DNA of 51,204 bases from Gemmatimonadota bacterium (GTDB lineage Bacteria > Gemmatimonadota > Gemmatimonadetes > Longimicrobiales > Gaopeijiaceae). The notes below the pieces were generated by a model that ran no database searches, was not told where the DNA came from, and saw nothing but the letters and a program-made list of their open reading frames with translations. The stretch covers positions 1 through 51,204 of the forward strand of contig DQPL01000129.1 of assembly GCA_015664885.1 (NCBI GenBank). Direction: 5' to 3'. The translations under genes were made by a program, and so were the position numbers. Positions 4,012 through 26,850 of this stretch are shown here, in pieces. Positions within the stretch are counted from its first letter, which is position 1. Each line of letters starts with the position of its first letter.

Positions 4012-6456
4012 ATGAACTACGTAGTCTCGGCAATGTTGTTCGCGGGCCTCTTGATGGTCACGCTGGCCCCAGACGCGGGTCCGGGCAGCAGCGCAGCGTA
4101 CGCCATTGGCGCGACGTCGAGCGAGGATTCTGACGCGGTCGTGCAGGCGTACTGCGTGCGCTGCCACAACGACCGCATGCTGCGCGGCAACCTCTCGCTC
4201 GAGGGCTTCACGCTAGACACGGCGGAAGAGACCGGCGACATCGCCGAGATGATGATCCGCAAGCTGCGCGCGGGCATGATGCCGCCGCCAGGTGCGCGCC
4301 GGCCCCCGGGTGACTCGTTGCTCGTTCTCGTGGAGTCGTTGGAAGCGCACATGGACGAGGCTGCCGCCGCGAACCCTAATCCAGGCGGGCGCACGTTCCA
4401 GCGGCTCAATCGCGCCGAATACGAGCGCTCGATCTACGACCTGCTCGGCCTGCAGGTCGATGCCGGTGACTATCTGCCGCTCGACACCAAGAGCGCCAAT
4501 TTCGACAACATCGCCGACGTGCAGATGATGTCGCCGACGTTGCTCGACTCCTACCTCAACGCCGCGGCGGAAATCAGTCGGCTGGCGGTCGGAAACGCTG
4601 ATGCCACCGCGAGCGAGTCACAGTACAGGATCCCGCGCTGGGTGTCTCAGACGGAACGCGTAGACGGCGCGCCGTTCGGCACCCGCGGCGGCACGTCGGT
4701 CCTCCACAATTTCCCGGCCGACGGTGAGTACGTCTTCCGCGTCTCGTTCCACCACGAGACCACCGGTACTGTGGTCGGCAACGGGCGCTCCGCGCTGCAA
4801 ACCGCTGACGCACTCGAGCAGGTCGAGATCTCGATCGACGGGGAGCGCGTCGCACTGCTCGAGATGGACCGATGGATGCACGTCTCCGACCCCAACAGCG
4901 TCGAGATGAGCACCGAGCCCATCCTGGTGGCGGGAGGCGCACACAGGGTCACCGCCGCGTTCATCAAGCGCACGGACGGACCCGTGCAGGACCTGATCTC
5001 GCCGCACGACTGGTCGCTCGCCAGTACCGCGATTGCGGGCACCTACGGCGTGAATTCGCTGCCGCACATCCGTGACCTGGTGGTCGGCGGGCCGCTGACG
5101 ACGGTGGGCGTCTCCGACACGCCCGTTCGCAGGCGGATCTTCACTTGCACGCCCGCCTCGCCGAACGAGCAACGGCCCTGCGCGAACGAGATCATCTCGA
5201 GGCTGGGCGAGCAGGCCTTCCGACGCCCGCTAAGGGAAGAGGATCGCTCGGCGTTGATGTCGTTCTACGACGAGGCCGCAGCGGAGGGTGACTTCGAGCT
5301 CGGAATCCGCACGGCGCTCGAAGCAATGCTCGCGAGCCCGCGCTTCGTTTTCCGCTTCGAGCAGCCTCCCGGGGACGTCGCCGCGGGGCAGACCTATCGC
5401 ATTGGCGCATTCGCGTTGGCGTCACGCCTCTCGTACTTCCTCTGGGCCGCGCCACCGGACGCCGAATTGAGGCAGGTGGCCGCGAGCGGCGCTCTGCTCG
5501 GCGATGGTGTGCTCGAGACGCAGGTCCTGCGCATGCTCGCCGACCCGAAGGCCGAAGCGCTCGGGCCACGATTCGCAGGCCAGTGGCTGCGCCTGCAAGA
5601 CCTCGACAAGATCCACCCGGACGTGCGTCTGCAGCCGGACTTTCATCAGCAGCTCGCGGATGCCATGCGGCGCGAAACCGAGCTCTTCTTCAACAGCTTG
5701 GTGAGGGACGATCGCAGCGTGCTCGACCTGTACGCCGCGGACTACACCTTCGTGAACGAGCGCCTGGCCAAGCACTACGGCATCCCCGGCGTCAGCGGCG
5801 AGCACTTCCGCCGCGTCAACTACCCCGACGACACGCGACGGGGAGTGCTAGGGCACGCCAGCATCCTGACCATGACGTCCCACGCGGGACGCACGTCTCC
5901 AGTGCTGAGAGGCAAATGGGTGATGGAGGTACTGCTGGGGACTCCGCCACCTCCCCCTCCCCCGGGCATTCCGGATCTGGAAGAGGTCGATGAGGCGGCC
6001 GGTGGCCGCATGCTCACGACCCGTGAGCGCATGGAACAGCATCGCGCCAGCCCCACGTGCAATTCCTGCCACCGCTTCATGGATCCAATCGGCCTCGCGC
6101 TCGACAACTTCGGGGTCACCGGCAAGTGGCGAACGAGGGAGAACGGCAGTCCGCTGGACACGCGCGGAGAGCTCTATGACGGGACGCCCATCACCGGCCC
6201 CGCCGACCTGCGACGCGCCCTGCTCAACCGTCCGATCCCGCTCATCCGGACCTTCACCGAGAATCTTTTCGCCTATGCACTAGGACGCCGGGTCGAACAC
6301 TTCGATCAGCCGACCGTGCGAGCGATCGCCCGCGCCGCGGAAGCCGATGATTATCGCATGTCGGCGTTTATCTTGGGCGTAGTGAAAAGCGACGCGTTCC
6401 GGATGCAGCGCGCCAACGTAGTCGCGCAGCAGGGCCCGGAGGGGCAGAAGCCCTAG
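4012..6456 (+). CDS. Exported DUF1592/DUF1588/DUF1585 protein with c-type heme motif
   Basis: This 814-residue protein has an N-terminal signal segment (residues 1-30) and a CVRCH heme-binding motif at residues 48-52 in a planctomycete-type cytochrome c region. The DUF1587 block follows (RTFQRLNRAEYERSI), then a carbohydrate-module-like middle section, then DUF1595 and DUF1592 (ALASRLSYFLWAAPPD). DUF1588 comes next (GVLGHASILTMTSHAGRTSP), and finally DUF1585 with SCHRFMDPIGLALDNF. This domain order is a known periplasmic family of Planctomycetota, Acidobacteriota and Gemmatimonadota with unproven function, presumed redox or polymer processing. It heads a same-strand run with the DUF1552 gene 32 bases downstream, its usual partner. 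Confidence 0.88.
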   Translation: MNYVVSAMLFAGLLMVTLAPDAGPGSSAAYAIGATSSEDSDAVVQAYCVRCHNDRMLRGNLSLEGFTLDTAEETGDIAEMMIRKLRAGMMPPPGARRPPGDSLLVLVESLEAHMDEAAAANPNPGGRTFQRLNRAEYERSIYDLLGLQVDAGDYLPLDTKSANFDNIADVQMMSPTLLDSYLNAAAEISRLAVGNADATASESQYRIPRWVSQTERVDGAPFGTRGGTSVLHNFPADGEYVFRVSFHHETTGTVVGNGRSALQTADALEQVEISIDGERVALLEMDRWMHVSDPNSVEMSTEPILVAGGAHRVTAAFIKRTDGPVQDLISPHDWSLASTAIAGTYGVNSLPHIRDLVVGGPLTTVGVSDTPVRRRIFTCTPASPNEQRPCANEIISRLGEQAFRRPLREEDRSALMSFYDEAAAEGDFELGIRTALEAMLASPRFVFRFEQPPGDVAAGQTYRIGAFALASRLSYFLWAAPPDAELRQVAASGALLGDGVLETQVLRMLADPKAEALGPRFAGQWLRLQDLDKIHPDVRLQPDFHQQLADAMRRETELFFNSLVRDDRSVLDLYAADYTFVNERLAKHYGIPGVSGEHFRRVNYPDDTRRGVLGHASILTMTSHAGRTSPVLRGKWVMEVLLGTPPPPPPPGIPDLEEVDEAAGGRMLTTRERMEQHRASPTCNSCHRFMDPIGLALDNFGVTGKWRTRENGSPLDTRGELYDGTPITGPADLRRALLNRPIPLIRTFTENLFAYALGRRVEHFDQPTVRAIARAAEADDYRMSAFILGVVKSDAFRMQRANVVAQQGPEGQKP

Positions 6457-26307: not shown

Positions 26308-26314
26308 AGCTAAC

Positions 26315-26580
26315 TCAGCGCACCCTGAAGTTGATCGGGAACTGTACCCAAACCGTGATTTTCTGGTCGCGTTGCAGGGCCGGCGAGAAGCGGAAGTGTT
26401 CGGCCACCCGTAGTGCCGCTTGGTCGAGGCTCGAGTGACCTGATGTCTTCGCGATGCGCGTATCCGCGACCCGTCCGTCCTCGTCGATCAAGAACCAGAC
26501 CTAGATGGAGGCGCCGACCCCGGCGTCCTTCAAAAGCGGAGGGTACTCGGCGATCAACAGTCTCGTGAGCTCGCTGCACA
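26315..26580 (-). pseudogene. TonB C-terminal domain, broken by in-frame stop
   Basis: The minus strand reads LLIAEYPPLLKDAGVGASI, then TAG at 26501-26503, then VWFLIDEDGRVADTRI and ALRVAEHFRFSPAL, ending at TGA 26315-26317. This is a clear energy-transducer TonB C-terminal domain of the type found alone or at the end of M56 proteins in this lineage, interrupted by one nonsense codon in the same frame. The position usually carries a polar residue such as Gln, so a C-to-T change of CAG is plausible. Sequence further upstream loses family resemblance, and a repeat element begins at 26645. TonB transmits proton-motive force to outer-membrane transporters; this copy is probably dead. Confidence 0.75.
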
Positions 26581-26644
26581 AGGCGATCCGAAAGGCGCAG
26601 GGCGACGAGAGAAGCGAGACATCGGTGCTCTACGTGAGGAAGCA

Positions 26645-26850
26645 CTAGGGAGCCTCTGGACAAGTAGAGCGCGCCACCCCAACACCAAGTGCGAAAACAC
26701 TTGACGGTCTGTGGGGTTACGATGGCACAGCCCCATCTCCGTCGTTGGAGCTCCTAGCCGTAGCGACGGCTATGGCGTCGTCGCCCCGCCTAGGATCTGG
26801 AGCCGTGGCACCGTAACGCGGCGTGCTCTACTTGTTCAGAGGCGCCCTAG
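26645..26850. mobile_element. 206-bp element with ~33-bp terminal inverted repeats (MITE-like)
   Basis: The left end (26645-26677, starting ctaggg.gcctctg.acaag) is an imperfect inverted copy of the right end (26818-26850, ending cttgttcagaggcgccctag), with about five mismatches in 33 bases. The interior has no protein frame of note. It folds further: caagtg/cacttg around cgaaaa at 26686-26703, ccgtcg/cgacgg, and gccgtagc/gctatggc. The layout suits a non-autonomous transposable element or a large structured RNA. The left end abuts the TonB remnant, and the right end sits 24 bases before the next gene's start. No transposase is present in the window. Confidence 0.55.

Follow-up and report, generated by a model that had tools for sequence, protein, structure and literature searches.

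A MITE family of Gemmatimonadota inserted at CTAG sites, with a conserved and probably RNA-like interior fold

The window that we analysed is a stretch of 51,204 nucleotides from a Gemmatimonadota bacterium (contig DQPL01000129.1), whose genome (G000) is in many contigs and is probably a MAG. Almost all relatives of its PaaA/PaaC-like protein carry a Gemmatimonadetes or Longimicrobiales label. On the plus strand at positions 26645-26850 it holds a whole copy of a MITE, counted with the CTAG target remnants at both ends. A C-terminal remnant of a SpoIIE-like phosphatase gene (26550-26648, plus strand; its relative in genome G014 matches PF07228) ends in SVLYVRKH, and its stop codon is the TAG of the left CTAG, which is the insertion site. 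Further left is a decayed C-terminal remnant of TonB (about 26314-26560, minus strand; PF03544, E 1.8e-15) with an internal stop. Directly downstream of the element is the first gene of a Paa-like cluster, FeS_assembly_P (PF01883; 26874-27173, plus strand). The first-pass annotation had placed the element exactly between a broken TonB gene and this cluster. The Paa gene is where it was said to be, and the TonB remnant is real but does not abut the element. The annotation also suggested that the element could have helped truncate TonB. The break in TonB, on the other strand, is some 90 bp left of the element. The stop codon that holds the insertion site belongs to the SpoIIE-like remnant instead, so we conclude that the element did not truncate TonB. 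Between 26314 and 26648 two decayed gene ends, TonB on the minus strand and SpoIIE-like on the plus strand, are joined beside the element. This junction is a rearrangement scar that is unrelated to the ends of the element.

The element proper covers approximately 26648-26847, and the duplicated TA lies inside the CTAG on either flank (left TA at 26646-26647, right TA at 26848-26849, both placed by an empty site in the same-genus genome G001 and by the ends of 66 copies). The terminal inverted repeats are at 26648-26676 on the plus strand (GGGAGCCTCTGGACAAGTAGAGCGCGCC..) and 26818-26847 on the minus strand. Imperfect inverted ends had been noticed before, and we found the arms at 26645-26675 and 26820-26850, with a length of 31 nt, 90% complementarity and a spacing of 144 nt. 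Between the terminal repeats are the domain B hairpin (CCCC...GGGG; 26677-26716, plus strand) and domain C (26716-26817, plus strand), a conserved hairpin module with invariant loop bases that our covariance model R1 matches at 26718-26814 with 97 bits. Full-length elements are about 328 bp, with domains A, B and C in that order between the two terminal repeats. The 206-bp copy in the window is a shortened form of this element from which domain A (about 100-125 bp where present in full-length copies) is cleanly gone. Comparison with the 328-bp copy G000:C5 puts the point of absence at 26676-26677. We found no convincing gene inside the element, only chance ORFs, so the interior is non-coding as first described. 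A 216-nt stretch folds more stably than its dinucleotide shuffles on both strands (z of -10.1 for plus and -9.3 for minus), and none of 200 shuffles equalled it.

A search for further copies found about 12, full or partial, in the window's own genome and about 40 in G001. With blastn, matches were present in 12 of the 59 genomes searched (G000 is counted among the 12), and further genomes have the terminal repeats around an interior that has diverged beyond the reach of blastn. Model R1 found the inner module in 34 of 298 genomes of the phylum, spread over 20 of 119 genera. Copies range from 164 to 411 bp, and none has its own transposase. We collected 102 elements with arms, and their flanks are all unrelated; several copies within a genome are about 90% alike. 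The proposal of a MITE-like, non-autonomous element was therefore borne out, with many copies at unrelated sites, insertion sequences with matching ends, an empty site and a TA duplication. By every feature tested, the element is a MITE.

We made some side observations on the distribution. One 4.2-Mb genome, G021, has 110 matches to the terminal-repeat pattern, many of them at contig ends, which is probably a burst of subfamily 2 that broke the assembly. Nine module matches occur in G213 (family f8); the one that we read, at L264, sits in a palindrome (GGTCGATSAAAACGACCCA...) with ends unlike the IS1182/IS5-type repeats, and this palindrome may be another carrier of the module. Near the orthologous locus in G001 (G001:C14, L205 at about 1531) there is a lone left arm (CTAGCAGCCCGTG-AGAAGTACAGAGGGCCGCG) with neither module nor right arm. 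Plasmid matches were tried and rejected. In viral contigs, two specific patterns gave zero matches, and a third pattern, which was too loose, gave only chance matches.

Insertion site. At the position that corresponds to the window copy, G001 reads GGAAGCA-CTAG-CCGCTCT, while the window reads GGAAGCA-CTAG-element-CTAG-CCGCTCT. G014 also has no element at the equivalent site. CTAG is its own reverse complement, so the window site alone cannot separate a duplication of TA from a duplication of CTAG. The ends could be read in 66 copies. Of these, 41 have CTAG on both sides and fit either length. In 19, the outer bases are unequal with a constant inner G and C, which agrees with a TA duplication; two fit a 4-bp duplication and four fit neither. 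The TA duplication is thus favored in 19 of the 21 copies that can decide, and we rejected a 4-bp CTAG duplication because TTAG/CTAA sites show TA only. The target is CTAG/YTAR and the TA is duplicated, so the target-site duplication that had been named as a check on mobility is present, together with the empty CTAG site in G001.

Partner transposons. We found insertion sequences by a search for DDE transposases and then compared their ends with those of the MITEs. Three genomes have an IS whose ends match MITEs of the same genome. In G030 a 1400-bp IS with ends CTAGCAGGYCGCTGAAAAA matches MITE L142 (CTAGCAGGTCGCTGAAAAAG), in G001 a 1472-bp IS with ends CTAGGAGCCCGTGG matches that genome's own MITEs CTAGCAGCCCGTGG and CTAGCAGCCCGTGGTAGAAG, and in G016 the IS with matching ends is degenerate. 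A 1971-bp IS in G017 has ends (CTAGGAAGSTGACCGGAAAGCC) like those of a MITE type of other genomes (CTAGGAGGGTGATCGGAAAG). The MITEs and their partner ISs have only the ends in common. We scanned the transposases of G001 and G030, and both have DUF772 and DDE_Tnp_1. By E-value, both are closest to the IS1182 model of NCBIfam and next to IS5. Both are below the IS1182 cut-off (NF033551; 164.7 and 221.7 vs 270), and one passes an IS5 model (206.5 vs 140). Palindromes are reported as targets of some members of the IS1182 family (PMC5678879). An IS with matching ends had been suggested as a thing to look for; it exists in the four relatives named above, and we found no matching autonomous IS in G000 itself. 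The lack of such a transposase there may be a loss or an assembly gap. We also considered an IS630 origin, since a TA duplication in CTAG resembles IS630, and rejected it because G000 has no IS630-type transposase (DDE_3, PF13358). Taken together, the ends and transposase domains strongly indicate IS1182/IS5-like (DUF772/DDE) insertion sequences as the likely movers.

Interior fold. From 52 aligned copies we obtained a fold of four parts, closed by a stem of the two terminal repeats. Domain A is present in 49 copies. Its three tandem G.A/A.G steps are kept in 42-48 of all 52 copies, and one of the C-G pairs between these steps switches to G-C in 15. The hairpin loop of domain B is replaced by UUCG in several copies (CCC-UUCG-GGG). 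Domain C, a module of about 97 nt, is found again in elements that have diverged strongly. Subfamily 2 has the module twice, one on each strand, and domain A of subfamily 1 resembles domain C when it is read on the minus strand. One copy of the window's genome (G000:C64:39883-40214; L014, L191) has domain C the other way round from its remaining domains, as a flip of the palindrome would leave it. Several different stems of the element contain small nested hairpins, GGGCACCGCCGCCGAAGGCGGTGGTCC and ACCCGCAAGCGGGT among them (L009, L015, L018, L121, L124, L065), which look like a second, tiny repeat.

We then have 36 modules in one alignment, with 20 pairs, of which 15 show double changes. Pairing is present in 94.6% of cells, and 90 cells have double changes against a shuffle mean of 19.8, a count that none of 500 shuffles reached. 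Slid-structure controls gave at most 24 double-change cells. These counts are uncorrected for the tree, and relatedness among the copies inflates them. More weight therefore falls on the slid control and on between-family divergence than on the shuffle. The loop bases (CGTT.., CGCCT) are invariant across subfamilies and families, while the stems have diverged by paired changes. In other families, the R1 modules are inside elements with unrelated terminal repeats (CTAGTGTGGTGTCGCAGAA..), and the module was absent from the IS loci that we searched. Because the same module is found in elements with differing ends and is absent from those IS loci, we conclude that the module persists and the ends change. 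There was no Rfam match up to E 1 for the window or up to E 0.1 for four related loci. These alignments support a module whose fold is kept with covariation. Double changes in a palindrome can also be explained by template-switch repair, which counts against an RNA reading. For the large structured RNA that the first-pass annotation offered as an alternative, the conserved, covarying fold is thus supported, and action as RNA is likely.

Strand preference. We counted G.U against A.C on the plus strand. The ratio was 85:20 in domain A and 64:28 in the arms, where a single position gives 33 of the G.U. Domain C had no clear strand preference in the 52-copy set (131:74, with G.U mostly at two fixed positions and the pairs split 11 to 13). 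In the 36-module alignment the ratio was 89:14, which falls to 31:14 without two fixed wobble positions that hold 58 of the 89 G.U cells. For domain C of the window copy, the minus strand is the more stable one (-58.9 vs -48.5 kcal/mol for plus).

Orientation to genes. Where the neighbors of the 102 armed elements are co-directional, we observed 40 +/+ elements against 12 -/- (p 1.3e-4). Two-module elements were oriented by the higher-scoring module, which is a partly arbitrary choice; single-module elements between co-directional genes gave 30:9. An ORF-free codon-phase method on 450-bp flanks gave 37:9 (p 4e-5). By genome, +/+ was in excess in 11 and -/- in one. Coding-scored ORFs have their stop at the left end of the element in 27 cases and at the right end in 13, and with bare open frames the count is 27:20, GC-rich DNA being a source of many spurious frames. 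An insertion preference linked to replication could produce this sense bias as well.

We are fairly confident that the best explanation is an IS1182/IS5-like MITE that carries a selected, RNA-like cargo fold, often sits just past a stop codon and probably acts in a read-through transcript. A selected RNA-like cargo fold accounts best for the loops that are kept, for the covariation and for the sense bias. Many elements combine the hairpin module with an inverted relative, domain A. IS1182/IS5-like (DUF772 + DDE) transposases would move the element in trans by recognizing its terminal repeats. Insertion at CTAG/YTAR duplicates the TA, often within the TAG stop codon of the upstream gene, and because the insertion rebuilds the TAG the upstream gene is spared. 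Since most copies between co-directional genes are in sense, we expect the read-through mRNA to include them. In that mRNA the module would fold, with the terminal repeats as the closing stem. We infer selection on the RNA fold. Its most likely benefit is that the host tolerates the insertion, for example because the fold protects the untranslated stretch against Rho or RNases or binds a host protein, or else that the element persists better for some other reason.

A bolder version of this explanation, which we put forward only tentatively, is a phylum-wide class of mobile elements in which a single conserved RNA module, about 97 nt long, is the constant part and passes from one set of unrelated transposon ends to another. 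The ends would be borrowed from resident ISs. Read in sense within host mRNAs, the module might counter polarity or stabilise the mRNA, and insertions after stop codons would thereby become harmless. Inverted pairing of modules would then provide one functional copy whichever strand is transcribed.

The strongest competitor, which we consider somewhat unlikely, is a device that works as DNA and not as RNA, either a cruciform or paired protein-binding sites as in REPINs, and serves transposition or a host DNA-binding protein. The two inverted modules of subfamily 2, the flipped domain C in G000:C64 and the lack of a clear strand preference for domain C in the 52-copy set would all fit such a device. 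A DNA device does not explain the one-stranded excess of G.U over A.C, seen both in domain A and in the 36-module alignment, or why the tandem G.A steps are on the plus strand of domain A only. The sense bias also argues against it, though here a replication-linked preference could mimic the effect. REPINs are moved by RAYT (TnpA-REP) transposases and are not known to have 30-bp terminal repeats. In our family, by contrast, the module is about 97 nt and the likely partner is of the DDE type. The resemblance is in the two related hairpins in inverted orientation, as in subfamily 2 (PMC3116915).

We give less credence to an ordinary MITE that is merely a good substrate for its transposase and whose interior seems conserved because the copies are young or were transferred between lineages. 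MITEs do generally fold well and have terminal repeats, and the copies that are about 90% alike within a genome would fit this reading. However, a neutral interior should decay before the terminal repeats, and we see the reverse, with stems diverged by paired changes, invariant loops and differing terminal repeats. The absence of the module from the IS loci that we searched is a further point against it.

A regulatory leader or riboswitch of the Paa-like cluster, specific to this locus, was suggested by the position of the element directly upstream of the first gene, and we now find it very improbable. Only 2 of 80 paa loci of relatives have a nearby copy of any kind. We read one of these two, L065, in full and it is an independent insertion elsewhere in the cluster; at 4640-5000 the same-family insertion is between FeS-assembly and PaaA/PaaC-like genes, also at a TAG stop codon. 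The corresponding site is empty in G001 and G014, and copies are found beside many other gene pairs with unrelated flanks. A conserved leader is thus refuted, and an effect of the window copy on its own neighbors is possible. A chance inverted repeat, which the first-pass annotation gave as its refuting case, can be dismissed almost entirely given the copies in many genomes and fold z-scores of -9 to -10.

For the reading that we prefer, a MITE with a selected RNA-like cargo fold, there are partial parallels in known systems. We found no description of this element family in the literature within our search, which left most subscription journals outside. MITEPsy1 of Pseudomonas syringae is IS5-related, is 100 nt long and inserts at CTAG or YTAA with a reported 4-bp duplication (PMC3189936). 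It is like our family in being small and non-autonomous, with CTAG/YTAA sites and IS5-like ends. It differs in length and duplication from the 164-411 bp and TA found here, and the accessible text reports no conserved inner fold to compare with our module (PMC3189936). QMITE1 and QMITE2 of Coxiella burnetii, according to the abstract, have about 50 copies of 150-400 bp and are a source of sRNAs; most QMITE2 copies lie between genes or in 3' untranslated regions (PMC5896051). Their duplications and repeats, as given there, differ from those of the window's family, and the abstract mentions no module common to elements with different terminal repeats (PMC5896051). MITE transcripts form stable stem-loops, according to a review (PMC10969869).

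MITEs are usually viewed as transposon ends around decaying filler, and here the interior is kept and the ends vary. The sense copies within strings of genes point to a mobile element that is selected for an RNA-like fold in host transcripts. Model R1 provides a marker for a family that is absent from Rfam, and the family is a test system for how non-coding insertions spare operons.
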